Below are positions 5,932 to 59,413 of a stretch of 64,000 bases of DNA, in pieces. The DNA comes from Acididesulfobacillus acetoxydans. Its GTDB lineage: Bacteria; Bacillota; Desulfitobacteriia; Desulfitobacteriales; Desulfitobacteriaceae. The position numbers and the translations under genes were made by a program. The stretch is taken from the NCBI RefSeq assembly GCF_902729405.1, contig NZ_LR746496.1:2232001-2296000 (forward strand), in the 5' to 3' direction. A model generated the notes under the pieces. That model did not search any database, was not told the DNA's origin, and was given only the letters and a program-made list of their open reading frames with translations. How positions within the stretch are numbered: the stretch's first letter is position 1; each line of letters opens with the position of its first letter.

Positions 5932-6426
5932 GTGAGCGGGTGCAACTTCCGCAAGACGGAGAAAAAACTGGCGAATGTGGAGCGCAAGCTTTCCCGCAAA
6001 AAGAAAGGTTCACACAACCGAGGGAAGGCCAAAGCGAAGGTCGCCAAAGTACACGCCAAAATCGCCAACCAACGCAGGGACTTTCTCCACAAGGCAAGTG
6101 CTCAAATCGTCAAGAACCATGACGTTATTATCATGGAGAATCTAACGATAAAAAACATGATCCGAAATCACAAACTCGCCAAGAGCATCCAAGATGCCGG
6201 ATGGGGGAAATTCGGAGACTACATTGAGTACAAAAGTTTACGCCAGGGGAAACGACACGTTCTAGTTGACCCCAAGGGCACATCGCAAACCTGCTTATGT
6301 GGAGCGCATGTCCCCAAAGACCTCAGTGTCCGTCTCCATGAGTGCCCCGTTTGCGGATTAGAGATGGATCGGGATCTAGTGAGTGCTAAACTCATCTTAG
6401 AGCGTGGACTGAGTGCCATGGCCTAA
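5932..6426 (+). pseudogene. TnpB (IS200/IS605 OrfB) C-terminal fragment
   Basis: This 164-residue frame matches only the C-terminal ~40% of TnpB, the RNA-guided nuclease of IS200/IS605 elements. It contains the basic helix KKLANVERKLSRKKKGSHNR, the RuvC-like glutamate in VIIMENLTIKNM, the zinc ribbon with CLCGAH and CPVCGL, and the last acidic residue in MDRDLVSAKLILERG. Full-length TnpB is about 370-400 residues, so the wedge domain and first RuvC aspartate are missing. No TnpA or complete element ends are seen. It separates the helicase from the remains of the next gene and probably marks an old insertion. Confidence 0.85.
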
Positions 6427-6432
6427 ACATAG

Positions 6433-6819
6433 ATTTTCTGTAGGGCGGGAACCGCCCGAAGTTACGCCTGTGAAAATTGTGTAAAAACCCGCCTCGAACA
6501 GCAGTTGGCAGCCATTTTGGCGGACCGCGAGCGGCGGGAAAGAGATCTGGACGAACGCTTTAGGGTAGAGGTCGAGATTCGTCTCGAACATGTGGTAGCC
6601 TATCATGTCCCTTGCCTCCGGGTCAGGCTCGAGCTGCAGCATAAGGACAAGGTGCTGCCTTATACGGTCCTCTTTAACCCGGTCATGGGTGAGCTTGAAC
6701 CTCCGGTTTGTGAGTGTTGCGGCCGCCACGTGACGCATTTAATCCCGTCAAAGGAGAGTTTTGTCTGCGAGAATTGTAGTGCCCCCCTTGATATTGACCA
6801 TTCTCGCGGACCGGTGTAG
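6433..6819 (+). pseudogene. 3' remnant of a zinc-ribbon protein following the helicase
   Basis: The frame is open from 6433 and has no good start; a TTG at 6505 lacks a ribosome site. It encodes YACENCVKTRLEQQLAAILA, a charged coiled segment, a beta-rich stretch, then CECCGRHVTHLIPSKESF and CENC, giving several CxxC pairs likely to bind zinc. The sequence begins in mid-domain right after the TnpB fragment, so the 5' part was probably lost with the insertion. Its position suggests it was once a partner of the upstream helicase. The family is not recognised. Confidence 0.5.
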
Positions 6820-6837
6820 AATAAAAATAATTCAGAA

Positions 6838-6994
6838 AAGGTAACAGGTGCCCCAGAGGGGGAGAATAGGGAACCGGGTGTGAACCCCGGACGGACCCGC
6901 CACTGTAAGGCAGAGTTTTGATGCTCACAGCCACTGGAAAACCGGGAAGGTGTGTCAGAACGATGAAGCCGAGCCAGGAGACCTGCCTGTGACC
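6838..6994 (+). promoter_or_regulatory. Cobalamin (AdoCbl-class) riboswitch
   Basis: All the conserved blocks of the B12 element appear in order: GGTGCC, GAATAGGGAACCGGGTGTGA, GACGGACCCGCCACTGTAA, AGCCACTGG, GGGAAGG, and GATGAAGCCGAGCCAGGAGA followed by CCTGCC. It lies about 145 bp upstream of the alpha-ribazole-kinase-like gene. No T-rich terminator hairpin is evident between it and the gene; an inverted repeat GTTCAT/ATGAAC near 7018-7052 could be the expression platform, which suggests translational control or weak attenuation. High cobalamin should shut off the downstream genes. Confidence 0.95.
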
Positions 6995-7139
6995 GGACGT
7001 TCATGAGCAATGGTAAAGTTCATGGTCAATTTTCCACTTCGGTTTATGAACCAAAGAGGAGGGTGACTATGGACTTTTTCTTATGTCCAGGCGGTCCATG
7101 GTTTTCCGTCTCGGCCAAATTGGGGTTGGGAGGTGAAAA

Positions 7140-7937
7140 ATGGGTTATCAGGGACGCGATGTGCAAGTCACTACGGCGCAAGGGTTTTGCCTGGTGGCTA
7201 CCTGCGATTCCAGTGGCGCGATTGGGGAGAAAGAAATGGACCGAGTCCGGATACCCGCGTACATTACCGGTCGGTTTACCACGCGGGTTGCACTTCTGGA
7301 GGTGCTGGCCACCGGGGCCGAACCGCGGATCGTGACAGCGGCTATTTGCAATGAGCCCGATCCTACCGGAGAGGAAATCCTCCGGGGGATCCGTGCCGAA
7401 CTTCGGCAGGTAAGCGAGGAGACATTGCCTCTCGCTATCAGCTGCGAAAAAAACATGATTACCCGGGAGACCGGCTTGGGGATCACGGTGGTGGGACTGA
7501 TTGAGGCCGGTAAGCTGCAGATTGGGATGACGAAGCCGGGTGACGCTGTATATTTGTTGGGGTTGCCCAAGGTGGGCTCTGAAGTCAGCTGTCCGGAAGA
7601 CCCCGAGATTGTACAAACTCCGCTGATCCGGGCTTTACGGGGCACACCCGCTGTCCATGACATTGTCCCGGTGGGGTCCAAGGGGATTCTGGGCGAGATC
7701 CGGACACTTACGGAAGGATTGGGGTTGGAATTCTGCGATGTGAACCCAGTGGAAAAGAGAGAGGAGCGGGCAGAGGATGCTTTCTCCGGAGAGAAGCCAG
7801 ACTTGGAGAAGTCGGGAGGACCGGCTACCTGTGCTGTGGTTACTGTAGAAAAAACTGCAGCATCGGATGTTCTTTTGCAAGTTCGGCGGCAGTTGTGCTG
7901 TTCTGTCCCCATCGTGCGTCTGGGATCGGTTAGTTAG
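7140..7937 (+). CDS. cblS: Alpha-ribazole kinase-like protein (AIR synthase/PurM-related)
   Basis: A 265-residue protein with the PurM/ThiL-like N-terminal motif (SSGAIGEKEMD, then ITGRFTTRVALLEVLATGAEP) that binds ATP in this superfamily. A stand-alone protein of this type under a cobalamin riboswitch and beside ECF transporter genes matches CblS, which phosphorylates salvaged alpha-ribazole for the lower ligand of cobalamin. ATG 7140 has GGGAGGTG four bases upstream. Residues about 200-235 form a charged insertion of the kind seen elsewhere in this window. The assignment rests on fold plus context; a generic AIR-synthase-related protein is the alternative. Cytoplasmic. Confidence 0.65.
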   Translation: MGYQGRDVQVTTAQGFCLVATCDSSGAIGEKEMDRVRIPAYITGRFTTRVALLEVLATGAEPRIVTAAICNEPDPTGEEILRGIRAELRQVSEETLPLAISCEKNMITRETGLGITVVGLIEAGKLQIGMTKPGDAVYLLGLPKVGSEVSCPEDPEIVQTPLIRALRGTPAVHDIVPVGSKGILGEIRTLTEGLGLEFCDVNPVEKREERAEDAFSGEKPDLEKSGGPATCAVVTVEKTAASDVLLQVRRQLCCSVPIVRLGSVS

Positions 7938-53472: not shown

Positions 53473-54363
53473 ATGATGAGTCATATCCGTTCGCAAAAGG
53501 AACTGCTTAAAGACATAAAAGACTTGATCCTCACGCATTTTGGCGAGAGTGGTCAGGGGATTCATGTGGAAGTAAAAGGAGATAAAGTTTCCCTTTGGGG
53601 TGCTGTGGATACTTTGGCAGAGAAGGATTTTGCCGCTCAGCGCATCAGCCGGATCGAGGGTGTGAAAGAACTGGATAATTCCCTAACGGTGGCTGATGAT
53701 GGCAAGATCAGTGACAAAGAAATTGAGGAATGGGTTCGCCAACGGTTAGCCGGGTCGGGGCATAAGGAGGTTTCCGGCCTGGGCTGCCGGGTGAGCCACG
53801 GAATAGTCACCCTTTTGGGCCACGTGGAGACCCGGAGCAATGAACATTTGGCCGAGAAAATCGCTTCTCAGATTCGCGGGGTTAAAGAGGTTCGCAGCGA
53901 AATTCAACTGAAGGGAAAGAGCGTCGACGATGCGGTGCTGGTCAACCGGGTGGAAAGTGCTCTGGCCGCTTCCCCTTGGGTGAATGCTCAGGAAATTAAA
54001 ACAGCGGCCAGTAACGGTTTGGTCACTTTAACGGGTCTAGTGAACACCCCGGATGAGTTGGAGTGGGCGGTAGAAACGGCTTATCAAGTTGCGGGAGTGA
54101 AAGCGGTCGTCAGTGAGGTGCTGTCCCGCCATCATTCCCAGGGGGAAGATTTGCGTTTGACGGAACAGCTTGTCAATGCTTTGGGGCTTAATCGGCTCAA
54201 TTCGGCCCAGGTGCACGCTTATGTGCAGGGCGGGATTGCTTTTCTTTCAGGAGAAGTCTACTCTCCGGAGGACCGGGAACGTGCCGAGATTCTTTGTCAG
54301 GGAATGCCCGGCATCGACAATGTCGATAATAGTATTCGGGTAGCCGCTCATTGGAGCAAGTGA
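53473..54363 (+). CDS. Four-BON-domain protein
   Basis: 296 residues made of four BON-like modules, seen as repeated VxGxVxLxGxVxTxxEKxxA patterns: IHVEVKGDKVSLWGAVDTLA, VSHGIVTLLGHVETRSNEHL, SNGLVTLTGLVNTPDELEWA and VQGGIAFLSGEVYSPEDRER. BON domains bind phospholipid membranes or act in stress proteins. There is no signal peptide, so it is probably cytoplasmic. GAGGAGG precedes ATG 53473 (a second ATG at 53476). The 290-bp upstream gap contains TTTGTCGAA (about 53348), a Spo0A-box-like sequence, so stationary-phase control is possible. Confidence 0.85.
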   Translation: MMSHIRSQKELLKDIKDLILTHFGESGQGIHVEVKGDKVSLWGAVDTLAEKDFAAQRISRIEGVKELDNSLTVADDGKISDKEIEEWVRQRLAGSGHKEVSGLGCRVSHGIVTLLGHVETRSNEHLAEKIASQIRGVKEVRSEIQLKGKSVDDAVLVNRVESALAASPWVNAQEIKTAASNGLVTLTGLVNTPDELEWAVETAYQVAGVKAVVSEVLSRHHSQGEDLRLTEQLVNALGLNRLNSAQVHAYVQGGIAFLSGEVYSPEDRERAEILCQGMPGIDNVDNSIRVAAHWSK

Positions 54364-54713
54364 TGATAAAAAGATAACCCGTGACACTTGCACAGGAACG
54401 AAAGAGAACGTATAATAGGGTTAAGGGGAACATTAGTTTGATATACAGGAACCTGAGTTTGACCAAGGAGAAACCTGAGTTTGGAGCGGTCAACCACCCC
54501 CTGCCTAAAGGCGCCTAAAGACGTCTGAAGCCAGGGGTTTCCGCGCGAAGCATTCGGTCAACTTTGACAACCTGAAACTAAGTTCAGGCCAGGGCTATAA
54601 GCCTTTAACATGATTTGCGGGGGAGTCTATTCCTCCTGACTGAGGTCAGAAGTATCCGAGCTCCGATGATCATGAACTTAGGGGACAAAAACCCGGATGG
54701 TGGGGGGACAGAG

Positions 54714-56015
54714 GTGCATTGGCTGCTCTATTTGGCTTTCGAAAATCCGGAGCGGAGAGAGATTAAGGATGTCTGTTCCGGTGAGGATTCCGGACGATGT
54801 CCTTGTCTGCCGGGGTTAAGGAGAGAACTTGCCGGTTCCTCCGGGAAGCACTCGTGTTTAGATGCAGACAGGGGAATTTTACCCGCGGGCAGCGAGACTG
54901 CGCCGGTGACTTTTAAGGCTTTCTCCGCGGGTAACCGGACCACACCGGGGACCGAGGACGGGGATGCTCCGGTGTCGGTTTCTTTAAATAAGGCACAGGG
55001 GTTTTCCCCAAGGATAGAAAAGGGCCGGGGTGAATACTGGCTGGAATTAAGTGGCCCGGATACGGTTTTTAAAGTCATGCGGGAATTAAAAGACGGGCCG
55101 CGGGTGATGGCGCTCGCACCGAACAAGTGGTTGGCGAAGCAATTGGCCCTTAACCTTTTAAATTACCCCGCAGAGACGGAAATCGGGTCTTCATGGTATC
55201 TCTGGCGGGGGAGAAAGGTCTTTTCCCAGGGTCGGGAACTCGCGCTGATATGTTTTTCCCCCAACCGCCAAAAGGAAGATTTTTATCCGGGTCCGGCTTC
55301 AGCCGGTCAGGCCTGGCAGGCCTGGGCCAAGAGCAGTTTTTGGCATGCTTTTCCTGTCCGGGGGCTTTGGTTTTTGACCCCCAAAGCCGTTGACGAACTG
55401 GAAAGACTGGGTTTTAACAACCTCGGGCAGTTACTGAGCTTGGGGGATGATTTCCTTGGGCGAGTGACGGGTAATCCGTACCTGCCCGCCTATTTAAAAG
55501 GGGGAGAGAATCTTCCCGGGCTTGAGAACAATTATCCCGAGCGGAGTTTGCGTTTTTCCGCGGACTTAAGAGATCCGGACAGTCAAAATGAGGCGGACAG
55601 TATCCGCCTGCAAGCTTCCGTGGAATTGCTTTCCTCCCGCCTAGTCGCTCAATTGGCACAAAGGCAGCAGGGATGCCTGCGTCTAAGTCTTACCGTTTCC
55701 CATGCGGGAGAGAGGCTGAGCAGAGAGAGGAGCTTTTCTCCCCCCCAATATACCCTGGGGGCATTGAAGGAAAATGCAACCATACTCTTGCGCACCTTGC
55801 CCTTTCCCAGTTATAGCGAAGTTTGCCTGGAAGCGGGAGGGCTGCAAACCGTAAGTTATCTCCAGTATACTCTGTTTGCGGAACAGGCCCGTTTAGCGCA
55901 GGATCCGCATTTAACAGCGTTGGTCTCGCGCTTTTCGGGTGTACTGCAACGGGGAAAGGAATTTTCCCGCCGGGAAAAGATGCTCGCCCACTATGATCCT
56001 TGGCGTTTCGGGTAG
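54714..56015 (+). CDS. Y-family DNA polymerase-like protein (ImuB-like)
   Basis: About 433 residues from GTG 54714 (after GGGGGG), which gives MHWLLYLAFEN as in ImuB proteins; the frame runs back to TTG 54615. The segments GPRVMALAPNKWLAKQLALN (end of palm), FPVRGLWFLTPKAVDELERL and GFNNLGQLLSL (thumb helix-hairpin-helix) and a little-finger region (NEADSIRLQASVELLSSRL) follow Y-family order. The usual catalytic acidic motif of active Y-family enzymes is not found, and residues about 20-120 are low-complexity. Catalytically dead ImuB recruits the DnaE2 polymerase in SOS mutagenesis; here a DnaE gene starts 20 bp downstream. Confidence 0.65.
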   Translation: MHWLLYLAFENPERREIKDVCSGEDSGRCPCLPGLRRELAGSSGKHSCLDADRGILPAGSETAPVTFKAFSAGNRTTPGTEDGDAPVSVSLNKAQGFSPRIEKGRGEYWLELSGPDTVFKVMRELKDGPRVMALAPNKWLAKQLALNLLNYPAETEIGSSWYLWRGRKVFSQGRELALICFSPNRQKEDFYPGPASAGQAWQAWAKSSFWHAFPVRGLWFLTPKAVDELERLGFNNLGQLLSLGDDFLGRVTGNPYLPAYLKGGENLPGLENNYPERSLRFSADLRDPDSQNEADSIRLQASVELLSSRLVAQLAQRQQGCLRLSLTVSHAGERLSRERSFSPPQYTLGALKENATILLRTLPFPSYSEVCLEAGGLQTVSYLQYTLFAEQARLAQDPHLTALVSRFSGVLQRGKEFSRREKMLAHYDPWRFG

Positions 56016-56035
56016 AAACTTAGGGGGTGTCCGGC

Positions 56036-59000
56036 TTGGATTTTGTCCATCTGCATGTACATTCCCCATATTCCTTTTTGGCTGGGGGGAGCCACCTCCA
56101 CCGTTTAGTCCGCAAAGCAAAGGAGTTAGGGTTCAAGGCTTTGGCTCTGACAGATTGGCACAGTCTGGCCGGGGCAGCCCGCTTTCAGGAGTTGATGCTG
56201 GAAGCCGGGCTAAAACCTGTTTTCGGGGCGGAGGTAGCGGTCCGTTCGCGGGAACCGGTTCGGGGAAGTCAACAGCTGCCGGTTTCAGGCACACAGTATA
56301 GTCTCCGTGCGGGCGGAGAAGACGGTCTGGGTTCGCGTGCAGATCATGGCGTAGTCATTAGTTCGCGTGCCGCATATGACCCGGGAGCAGGCGGCCGGCG
56401 GGGCTCCACTCAGGACGATAGGTTCGCTGTCAGCACAAACGGCCCGTGTGGCCCCTCTCTGTTCGATCAAAGGCGGGGTTTGAGTGGCCCGGAAAGTTAC
56501 CATCTGGTCCTTTTAGCGCGAAATTTGGAAGGTTACCGGAACTTAAGCCGTTTGCTTACGGAGAGTCACCTGGATCACCCGCGGGGTGAGCCCTTGGTGG
56601 AGTGGGAAAGTTTAAAAAAGTTCAGCCCGGGATTATATGCCCTTTCGGGTTGCCGGCAAGGGGAGGTCCCTTTTTGGCTTTTGCAGGGGAAATATGAGCA
56701 GGCCAGGGCGGCAGCGGAAGCTTACCGGGAATTTTTCGGCGAATATTTTTACCTGGAGGTCCAGGGGGATCGCCTTCCCGGTTGGAAACCCCTTTGGACG
56801 GGGATGCAAAGACTTCACCAAGAGTTGGGGATTTCTTTGGTGGCGACAAATAACGTCCATTATGCCGAGAAAGAGGATTTTCGGGTTTTTGATTTGCTCA
56901 CCTGCTTGCGTAAGAAAGTCAGGTTGGACGAAGTGGTGGCAGGACGGTATCTGAACGCCGAAAATTATCTTAAAACCTCCGCGGAAATGCTGGCGGCTTG
57001 TGGGGAAAGGCCGGAAATACTGGAGGAAAGCGCGAAAATTGCCGCGGAGTGCACTGTTCATTTAGGAGAAGAATCTTTTTTCCCCCAGTACCCTTTGCCC
57101 AGCGCCGAGGCCCGGGCGGGATTTTTAAAAGAGCTGACCTGGCAGGGGGCGCGGCAACGGTACGGGCGGATTACGCCGGAAATTCAGCGGCGCCTCGAAT
57201 ATGAACTCGGGGTTATCAATCAACTGGAATTCGCCGACTATTTTCTGGTGGTCTGGGACGCTTTGCAGTTTGCCCGCCGCAAAGGAATCCGTTTTGCCGG
57301 GCGGGGCTCGGCAGCCGACAGTGCGGTCGCCTACTGCCTGAAAATCACGGAAGTGGATGCTATCGGCAGAGGGCTGTTGTTCGAACGCTTTCTCAGTTTG
57401 GAGCGTGCCGAGAAACCGGATATCGATGTGGATTTTGATGCGCGTTACCGCGACCGGGTGGCGGCTTATTTCAGTGAGCGCTACGGGCAGGATCAGGTGG
57501 CGGCTGTCGGGACATTCCAAACTTTCCGGGCGCGCTCGGCGATTCGGGAAGTGGGGAAAGTTTTTGGCCTGCCGGAGGCGGAACTGGACGATTTGGCTAA
57601 ACGTATGCCCTGGATAAATGCGGATGAAATTCAGGCGGCGATGTCTTTTTTCCCCGAATTGAAAGTTCTGCCGCCCGAGAGACAGAAAAGCCTGCAAATG
57701 CTCTTGGCGTATTGTGCCCGGATTTCCGAGTTTCCGAAGTTTTTGGGCATGCATCTGGGCGGGATCGTGGTAAGCAGGGAACCGGTGGCAGACATTGTTC
57801 CTGTGCAATGGTCTGGGAAAGGAACCCGGGTGATTCAAGCGGATAAACGGGATATTGAAGAGTTGGGGTTGTTTAAAATTGATCTCCTCTCTTTGCGCAC
57901 CTTATCGGTGGTGGACGACAGTATCCGCGATGCCAAGGTCTCAGACCGTACTTTCCGGGAAGAGGTGACGGTCGGGGATCACGAGGAGGTTTATGCCCGC
58001 TTGCGCACGGGCGGGACGATGGGGATTTTCCAGCTGGAGAGTCCGGCCCAGAGGGCTTTACAAAGCCGCTTGGGAGCCGAACGTTTTGAAGATGTTGTGG
58101 CCAGCGTGGCGTTGATTCGCCCCGGTCCGGTGAAGGGGGATATGGTCGAGCCCTATGTCGCCCGGCGCCAGGGTTTGGCTCCCGTGAATTACCTGCATCC
58201 GGCTTTGGAGACGATTTTGCACAAAACGTATGGCGTCGTTTTATTCCAGGAGCAGGCTATTGAAATCGTGCAGAAAGTGGCTGGCTTTTCCTTGGGAGAG
58301 GCGGATCGCTTGCGCCGTGTGATGAGCCATGTCCGTTCTTCAGAGGAAATGCGGGAAATTGGGCGGATGTTTGAAAAACGGGCTATAGAAAGAGGAGTCG
58401 AAAAGAAAGTGGCGGAGACGATTTTCTCTTATCTCGTCGGTTACGCGGGCTACGGCTTTTGCGAAGCTCATGCGGCGGCTTTTGCCACGACCGCCTTGAA
58501 GACTGCCTATTTGGTTGAGCACTACCCGGCGGAGTTTTTCGCGGCTCTGCTCAATCACCAGCCGATGGGATTTTATCCGGCGCACACCTTGGCGTTGGAG
58601 GCGAAACGGCGGGGAGTGCGGCTTTGGCCACTGGATCTGCAAAAGAGCGTCTGGGATTTCCGGGTAGAAAACGGGGGGATCAGGACAGGGTTCAGGCAGT
58701 TGAAAAACATGAGTCAGGAGGTGGCTTTCCGTATTGAAAAGGAGCGTGGCAAACAGGGGTTCCGCACTTGGCAGGATGCGGCTGCCAGGTGTGAACTTTC
58801 CGGCCCGATGTTGGAGAACCTCGCTCTGGCCGGTGCTTTTGAAACGCTCTTTCCCAATCGCAAGGCCTTGCTCTGGGAGATCCGTCAAGGCCGGGGTCAA
58901 GGGCTTTTTGCGGAGGAAAATTTCCTTGGGCCTGAGTACCCGGATTTTACCCTGCTGGAGAAAACAGAGTGGGAGTACAGGCTTTTAAAGCTCAACACGA

Positions 59001-59413
59001 CCTATCGGCTGATGGAGCTTTGGCGTCAAGTCTACGCCTGGCAGGGGTTTGCTACGACAAAAACCGTCGACGGGCTGCCGGCGGGTGCGCGGGTGAGCCT
59101 TATTGGGCATGTTTTGCGTCCCCATCGCCCGCCGACCCGCAGCGGGCAAGTGGTAGTTTTCTTTACCTTGGAAGATGAGTTCGGTTTTTTGGATGTAACG
59201 CTTTTTGAACGGGATTATCAAAAATGCGGCCAATGGCTTTTTGGTTCACGAAGTGGGCCTCGCTTGGTCTCGGGAGTTTTGCAGAGGAGAGGCCGAGGGG
59301 TGTCCCTGATTGCGGAGGCAGTGCTCCCTCCTCCGGGAGACAGTCGGCAGCGGCCTGGGGAGCCCAAGTATCTGCCTGGGGGCACCGGGCCCGATACTTC
59401 CGTTTCTCAGTGA
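56036..59413 (+). CDS. dnaE: DNA polymerase III alpha subunit (DnaE type; possible error-prone DnaE2/ImuC)
   Basis: About 1125 residues. The N-terminal PHP domain starts DFVHLHVHSPYSFLAGGSHL, then ALALTDWHSLAG; the polymerase core has GRGSAADSAVAYCLKITEVD, the catalytic KPDIDVDFDARYRDRV and GVVLFQEQAIEIVQKVAGFS; a C-terminal OB domain (RVSLIGHVLRPHRP) ends the protein. TTG 56036 fits the AGGGGG site better than GTG 56027. Its length and SFLAGGS opening suit DnaE2, and the ImuB-like gene directly upstream supports a mutasome role, but the replicative DnaE cannot be excluded. Residues about 75-150 are an unusual Gly/Arg/Ser-rich insertion in the PHP domain. Confidence 0.88.
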   Translation: MDFVHLHVHSPYSFLAGGSHLHRLVRKAKELGFKALALTDWHSLAGAARFQELMLEAGLKPVFGAEVAVRSREPVRGSQQLPVSGTQYSLRAGGEDGLGSRADHGVVISSRAAYDPGAGGRRGSTQDDRFAVSTNGPCGPSLFDQRRGLSGPESYHLVLLARNLEGYRNLSRLLTESHLDHPRGEPLVEWESLKKFSPGLYALSGCRQGEVPFWLLQGKYEQARAAAEAYREFFGEYFYLEVQGDRLPGWKPLWTGMQRLHQELGISLVATNNVHYAEKEDFRVFDLLTCLRKKVRLDEVVAGRYLNAENYLKTSAEMLAACGERPEILEESAKIAAECTVHLGEESFFPQYPLPSAEARAGFLKELTWQGARQRYGRITPEIQRRLEYELGVINQLEFADYFLVVWDALQFARRKGIRFAGRGSAADSAVAYCLKITEVDAIGRGLLFERFLSLERAEKPDIDVDFDARYRDRVAAYFSERYGQDQVAAVGTFQTFRARSAIREVGKVFGLPEAELDDLAKRMPWINADEIQAAMSFFPELKVLPPERQKSLQMLLAYCARISEFPKFLGMHLGGIVVSREPVADIVPVQWSGKGTRVIQADKRDIEELGLFKIDLLSLRTLSVVDDSIRDAKVSDRTFREEVTVGDHEEVYARLRTGGTMGIFQLESPAQRALQSRLGAERFEDVVASVALIRPGPVKGDMVEPYVARRQGLAPVNYLHPALETILHKTYGVVLFQEQAIEIVQKVAGFSLGEADRLRRVMSHVRSSEEMREIGRMFEKRAIERGVEKKVAETIFSYLVGYAGYGFCEAHAAAFATTALKTAYLVEHYPAEFFAALLNHQPMGFYPAHTLALEAKRRGVRLWPLDLQKSVWDFRVENGGIRTGFRQLKNMSQEVAFRIEKERGKQGFRTWQDAAARCELSGPMLENLALAGAFETLFPNRKALLWEIRQGRGQGLFAEENFLGPEYPDFTLLEKTEWEYRLLKLNTTYRLMELWRQVYAWQGFATTKTVDGLPAGARVSLIGHVLRPHRPPTRSGQVVVFFTLEDEFGFLDVTLFERDYQKCGQWLFGSRSGPRLVSGVLQRRGRGVSLIAEAVLPPPGDSRQRPGEPKYLPGGTGPDTSVSQ

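Follow-up and report, generated by a model that had tools for sequence, protein, structure and literature searches.

The 64,000-nucleotide stretch of Acididesulfobacillus acetoxydans DNA analysed here (hereafter the window) carries two adjacent genes, for a Y-family-like protein and a DnaE polymerase, which raise the question of what system of DNA synthesis they serve and whether all of its parts are present. A sequence-only reading had described them as an ImuB-like protein paired with a DnaE2-like polymerase, without ImuA, and as a candidate mutasome of a Bacillota type. The analysis presented below suggests that the two genes, iPolY and DnaE2, are probably the main operon of a split, LexA-controlled and ImuA-less mutasome of the DnaE2X type. 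According to the accessible part of PMC8982180, A. acetoxydans has one 4.52-Mbp chromosome, and its closest relative by amino-acid identity (89.3%) is strain CEB3. The latter was the only other member of the genus met among the genomes compared. The host is probably an acid-loving sulfate reducer. Coordinates of the features are collected in Table 1.

Table 1. Features of the iPolY-DnaE2 locus (window positions) and of the distant ImuB-C gene (genome positions).
Feature	Position	Strand	Basis or remarks
Promoter-like site TGCACA - 16 nt - TATAAT	54389..54416	+	Consensus match only
LexA-like box 1, GGAACATTAGTTTG	54427..54440	+	Aligned CEB3 box GGAACATAAGTTTG
LexA-like box 2, GGAACCTGAGTTTG	54448..54461	+	21 bp after box 1; aligned CEB3 box AGAACCTAAGTTTG
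Leader insertion relative to CEB3, ~200 bp	54467..54667	+	Separates the boxes from the start codon in this strain, not in CEB3
Interspersed repeat copy, ~60 bp, GTCAACCACCCC ... GGGGCTTCCGCGCGAAGCATTCGGT	54488-54561		Within the leader insertion; absent there in CEB3
iPolY, reduced Y-family protein, predicted catalytically dead	54714..56015	+	433 aa; ORF, alignment and model
In-frame insertion in iPolY relative to CEB3, ~141 bp	54840..54980	+	Inside the low-confidence stretch at the place of the fingers
Candidate beta-clamp binding motif QYTLF in iPolY	55863..55877	+	Alignment with relatives
Conserved C-terminal tail of iPolY, SRREKMLAHYDPWR	55965..56006	+	Conserved among 40 sequences
DnaE2	56027..59413	+	1128 aa, start GTG; polymerase residues D465, D467 and D619 kept
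87-residue stretch in the PHP domain of DnaE2	56237..56497	+	Alignment with DnaE2X rows
ImuB-C (DUF6504, PF20114) gene	genome 97390-97566	minus	Only PF20114 match in the genome

As for the first gene, the program-made open reading frame is longer and begins at TTG 54615. This start is unsupported, because in CEB3 an in-frame stop codon sits directly before the GTG codon common to both strains. A profile search with the single iPolY sequence found no families at E <= 0.001, the IMS_C domain appearing at E = 0.015, under the Pfam cut-off. The Y-family assignment, weak from one sequence, is clear from the family: the alignment of 40 iPolY sequences matched the DinB of the same genome with an hhalign E-value of 9.5e-35 and the ImuB of Sinorhizobium with 9e-19. 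The AlphaFold model of iPolY (mean pLDDT 77) was compared with solved structures, and the PDB matches listed by Foldseek were Y-family polymerases (best E 5.9e-13, TM-score only 0.39). The best VIA-align match had a Z-score of 16.8 with an rmsd of 6.0 over 272 aligned residues, and the matching structures included Dpo4, Dbh, Pol kappa, iota, eta and other Y-family polymerases. TM-scores as low as about 0.4 are expected if domains are missing or have moved; at the expected place of the fingers, the model has ~65 residues (15-80) with pLDDT below 50. The in-frame insertion was considered as a possible repeat, and this was rejected: it is unique, the query 54855-55002 having no other copy in the genome.

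In the family alignment, the site of the first-strand aspartate reads LLYLAF and the palm "xDE" site reads RG-E; thus, both metal-binding aspartates are lost and the glutamate is kept. The earlier description of a Y-family-like protein without its catalytic acidic motif was therefore correct, and iPolY is predicted to be catalytically inactive. At the site of the candidate clamp motif, the iPolY proteins of relatives have QYALF, QLNLF, QLKLF or QLLLF. Residues R420, D428, P429 and R431 of the C-terminal tail are invariant across the 40 sequences; the strict tail pattern occurs in 32 of 58 iPolY proteins and the strict clamp pattern in 22 of 58. A RecA-NT-like stretch can be aligned before the tail; several relatives show it more clearly, and in the window it is degenerate. 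Since iPolY ends directly after the YDPWR tail, it is without an ImuB-C domain. A reading of the locus as an ImuB-DnaE pair is thus unsupported, ImuB-C being a separate, relocated gene.

The polymerase gene follows at 11 bp; the 20-bp gap given in the sequence-only reading would apply only if TTG 56036 were the start. The DnaE2-like character of the polymerase was upheld by the tree. The best NCBIfam model for this protein was "error-prone DNA polymerase" (804.6 bits, under the cut-off of 939; next model 763.5). After a weak OB-fold match, the profile search found no C-terminal domain in the ~30 residues that remain, and no tau-binding domain. The DnaE tree came from a quick search under a simple model that flags long branches (e.g., L201 meeting PolC), and DnaE3, without a row in it, was addressed only by the lower NCBIfam scores of other DnaE models. 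In this tree, the window and CEB3 sequences formed one group with 20 other rows from related loci (22 rows, SH-aLRT 100); three of these, L102, L127 and L132, come from loci without iPolY in range. A wider DnaE2 group of 26 rows (SH-aLRT 100) also took in Sinorhizobium, Shinella, Manganitrophus and a long Nocardiopsis row; within it, the window protein and the two Rhizobiaceae DnaE2 stand on different branches. The 12 clostridial DnaE1 rows, among them the DnaE1 of the same genome, lay outside this group (support 99). A phylogeny and a search for a second dnaE and polC had been proposed with the sequence-only reading. The window DnaE does not group with the sole replicative alpha subunit, and both genes were found in the genome, which also encodes RecA, LexA and an apparently active DinB. 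Judged by its sequence, the protein is a DnaE2 and no replicative alpha subunit.

It is extremely improbable that this DnaE acts in replication or primer extension as a second alpha subunit, with an incidental neighbour: besides its place in the DnaE2 group, the presence of a separate DnaE1 and PolC, the lack of a detected domain after the OB fold and the conserved operon with iPolY and ImuB-C described below all argue against such a role, to be set against the E. coli DnaE1, which adjoins the DnaE2 side of the tree (support 89) and stays outside the DnaE1 rows from clostridia, and against the PHP signature of the relatives, which is close to that of DnaE1. The signature of the window DnaE2 is HHAWEHCNH, versus HHDHEHCDH in the DnaE1 of the same genome. 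Among the 20 DnaE2X rows besides window and CEB3, 15 have HHDHEHCNH, two have the intact HHDHEHCDH, and PHDHEHCNH, HHGWEHCNH (L084) and HHSREIGPH occur once each; the window protein thus has two substitutions beyond those of most relatives. At the place of the 87-residue stretch, 16 of these 20 rows have 5 residues, L084 has 38, and CEB3 has 86. In this alignment, the PHP domain of the DnaE2X group appears much closer to intact than that of the two DnaE2 from Rhizobiaceae; the lineage of the window seems to have suffered further losses and gained a long insertion. The polymerase aspartates are kept in every DnaE row examined. Two further DnaE proteins were met: L201, the third non-PolC DnaE of CEB3 (999-aa ORF, PHP signature HHDHEHCDH), has a very long branch in the tree, and L189, the second DnaE of a genome of the same family (G008), branches just outside the DnaE2 rows.

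Upstream of iPolY, one promoter-like pattern was found, versus a mean of 0.3 in shuffled sequences. Its TATAAT and the surroundings are conserved in CEB3, and the tandem LexA-like boxes stand just after it. The lexA gene of the same genome has the box CGAACATCTGTTTG 63 bp upstream, and recA has CGAACAAATGTTTG 48 bp upstream. The box upstream of the orphan ImuB-C gene, GGAACACGGGTTCC, has a perfect GAAC-N4-GTTC core, and its CEB3 counterpart, GGAACACAGGTTCT, is kept although the surrounding upstream DNA aligns poorly. Among named loci, a box was present in 52 of 66 iPolY upstream regions, versus 102 of 3300 random regions. Taken alone, the pattern SGAACNNNNGTTYS shows no enrichment across the genome (88 matches versus 102 for the reversed pattern); a single box is therefore weak evidence unless its position and conservation speak for it. 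Judging by these two features, iPolY-DnaE2 and the distant ImuB-C would both belong to the LexA regulon. A LexA-like box and a clamp-like motif, which the sequence-only reading had suggested looking for, are thus present, the former in tandem.

The repeat copy in the leader insertion has 15 other partial matches in the genome and resembles the end hairpins of IS200/IS605 elements. A riboswitch in the leader was considered and rejected, with no Rfam family at the gathering threshold and only a chance-level snoRNA match (E 0.44). Elsewhere in the window, a cobalamin riboswitch was found at 6829-7004 (111 bits). The protein encoded just upstream of iPolY (53473-54363) shows four BON-domain matches, and a like neighbour occupies this place in CEB3, G003 and G011.

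A search of the whole genome for ImuA, at a cut-off of 150 bits, gave two matches, of which one lies within recA (44.7 bits) and the other is weak (13.9 bits). An ImuA encoded elsewhere was therefore rejected, in agreement with the earlier statement that imuA is missing. ImuB-C, on the other hand, is present as a gene standing alone 2.19 Mb from iPolY-DnaE2, in a neighbourhood that is the same in CEB3; the gene beside it is presumably NRAMP-like. In the ImuB-C tree, the orphan formed one group (6 rows, support 98) with its homologs from CEB3 and with ImuB-C from the operons of G003 and G011, and it is therefore best read as a displaced ortholog. The ImuB-C family matched the C-terminus of Sinorhizobium ImuB in hhalign (E = 4.2e-7, probability 92.7); PF20114 itself matched this protein at E = 0.0012, under the cut-off, and had no match at E <= 0.01 in the Manganitrophus Y-family protein. 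The modelled ImuB-C (pLDDT 81) has seven strands in an all-beta fold, which agrees with the beta-barrel reported in the accessible part of PMC12926913. In CEB3, an ImuB-C hidden between iPolY and DnaE2 was sought at permissive settings and rejected (best E 1.4).

Other copies of ImuB-C were also observed. CEB3 has two extra standalone genes, at about 5480-5713 of L164 and at 7396-7629 of L163, both with a GAAC-N4-GTTC box ~50 bp upstream. The former is directly followed by an ORF (6016-7425) that we take to be integrase-like, so mobile elements may carry ImuB-C. Six plasmid records contain ImuB-C, four of them from Deinococcus. In G038, of the same family, there is an ImuB-C-like ORF (L165, 1529-1849), yet DnaE2X was not found in that genome.

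The arrangement in relatives shows what has been altered. In 66 of 80 related loci, surveyed with HMMs of 13 and 11 sequences (some source genomes recur among the loci: L082, L084, L085, L119, L130, L140), DnaE2 is directly preceded by iPolY and ImuB-C, and in 2 more both lie further up. The 14 loci without the adjacent pair comprise five with ImuB-C and no iPolY in range (L105, L116, L122, L126, L150), four with iPolY and no ImuB-C in range (L082, L112, L134, L152; further up in L112 and L134) and five with neither (L083, L102, L114, L127, L132; upstream sequence short in L083 and L114). In L152, iPolY is followed by ~0.9 kb without an ImuB-C match. Among 14 stretches from other genomes, the order iPolY - ImuB-C - DnaE2 was found in 10 (L028, L030-L038); a contig end in L029 carries iPolY and ImuB-C, L039 has a DinB-like protein alone, L040 no match, and L027 (CEB3) only iPolY and DnaE2. 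Among the loci examined, iPolY is followed directly by DnaE2 only in the window and CEB3.

DnaE2X was detected in 25 genomes of an uneven sample of 150 Bacillota, the present genome included; the calls were made by hand, at 700 bits or more (24 genomes) plus a cut gene in G049 at 54% identity. ImuB-C is encoded in 23 of these 25 genomes, versus 3 of the 125 without DnaE2X (Fisher p = 1e-21). The former figure is conservative, since G140 was counted as lacking ImuB-C though another search finds it. PolC was sought in 13 of the 150 genomes, and a PolC-like match was found in all 13, among them the DnaE2X genomes G000, G001, G003 and G047. Among the Bacillota examined DnaE2X is therefore not rare, in contrast with an earlier survey (PMC3919608), which described DnaE2 as extremely rare in genomes that have PolC.

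These data bear on a reading in which iPolY and DnaE2 form a two-part, Streptomyces-like system working with RecA alone, the orphan ImuB-C serving another polymerase, e.g., DinB. Relocation of ImuB-C could have ended its role in the iPolY-DnaE2 complex; neither member of the genus has ImuB-C between the two genes, and 3 of 125 genomes have it without DnaE2X. In addition, the available text of PMC6511836 (Timinskas and Venclovas, 2019) offers precedents: in Clostridia it reports a coupling of YqjH-type polymerases with ImuB-C, and in Streptomyces an iPolY-DnaE2 pair without ImuB-C. We nevertheless regard this reading as unlikely, given the place of the orphan among the operon-borne ImuB-C of its nearest relatives, its conserved box and purifying selection on it, and the near-strict co-occurrence of DnaE2X and ImuB-C.

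The dN/dS values against CEB3 were 0.23 for iPolY, 0.14 for DnaE2, 0.11 for ImuB-C and 0.08 for a partial DnaE1. The three mutasome genes are thus all under purifying selection, and at 0.11-0.23 decay is unlikely. A cassette that no longer works might be suspected from the displaced ImuB-C and the insertions in the leader, iPolY and the PHP domain, the first two of them absent from CEB3, as well as from the additional PHP substitutions and the degenerate RecA-NT-like stretch. We consider it very unlikely, because the three frames are all open, the polymerase aspartates are kept and the boxes are conserved, in line with the dN/dS values.

For the preferred reading, the split LexA-controlled mutasome, the following mechanism may be proposed. 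DNA damage would lead to RecA filaments and LexA cleavage, which would free the tandem boxes of iPolY-DnaE2 and the distant box of ImuB-C together. By analogy with the M. tuberculosis mutasome, iPolY may scaffold DnaE2 at the clamp, and RecA may stand in for ImuA. The separately made ImuB-C would bridge the PHP domain of DnaE2 and iPolY in trans, a task performed within one chain in canonical ImuB, and DnaE2 would carry out error-prone bypass. More speculatively, and in our estimate rather improbably, ImuB-C at its own LexA-controlled locus might be a separately dosed activator, scaffold and polymerase staying inactive until it arrives, as with UmuD'/Pol V; the extra CEB3 copies would then be mobile boosters of the mutagenesis dose. 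Since ImuB-C is distant from its partners and apparently regulated apart from them, the locus offers a clean test of a dose-limiting activator role.

Comparison with known systems shows that the ImuA-less module is not in itself new. In their accessible parts, PMC6511836 describes an ImuA-less iPolY - ImuB-C - DnaE2 operon of the Kyrpidia tusciae type, and PMC12926913 (2026) names the DnaE2X group, the sole DnaE2-based complex found with all three replication systems; given this prior publication, the claim of a new Bacillota-type system is unsupported. Of the modules that make up DnaE2 mutasomes, ImuB-C was described in 2019 as the least characterised (PMC6511836). In the model of the M. tuberculosis mutasome given in PMC12926913, ImuB-C binds the PHP domain of DnaE2, to which the thumb also binds. 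The literature search found neither an earlier report of a displaced ImuB-C nor any of DnaE2 in Peptococcaceae.

The window cassette fits the published DnaE2X in composition, sharing with the Kyrpidia type the dead Y-family protein, a standalone ImuB-C, DnaE2, the absence of ImuA and RecA as the proposed partner; that type is also known with PolC-containing replication systems (PMC6511836, PMC12926913). It differs from the described parts of these systems in the distance of ImuB-C and its own box, in an iPolY without most of the fingers region, and in the two extra PHP-signature substitutions over most relatives and the long insertion. With the ImuA-ImuB-DnaE2 cassette, it shares LexA-type boxes, a dead Y-family scaffold, a clamp-like motif and DnaE2, whereas ImuA was not found here and ImuB is split into iPolY and ImuB-C. 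According to the same part of PMC6511836, the Mycobacterium imuA'-imuB / dnaE2 cassette is likewise divided, the separate piece there being dnaE2 and here ImuB-C, and the DinB2(iPolY)-DnaE2 operon of Streptomyces coelicolor likewise lacks ImuB-C, which is here kept elsewhere. To this, the present analysis adds the displacement of ImuB-C within the genus, the conserved box ahead of the moved gene and the spread of DnaE2X among the Bacillota examined.
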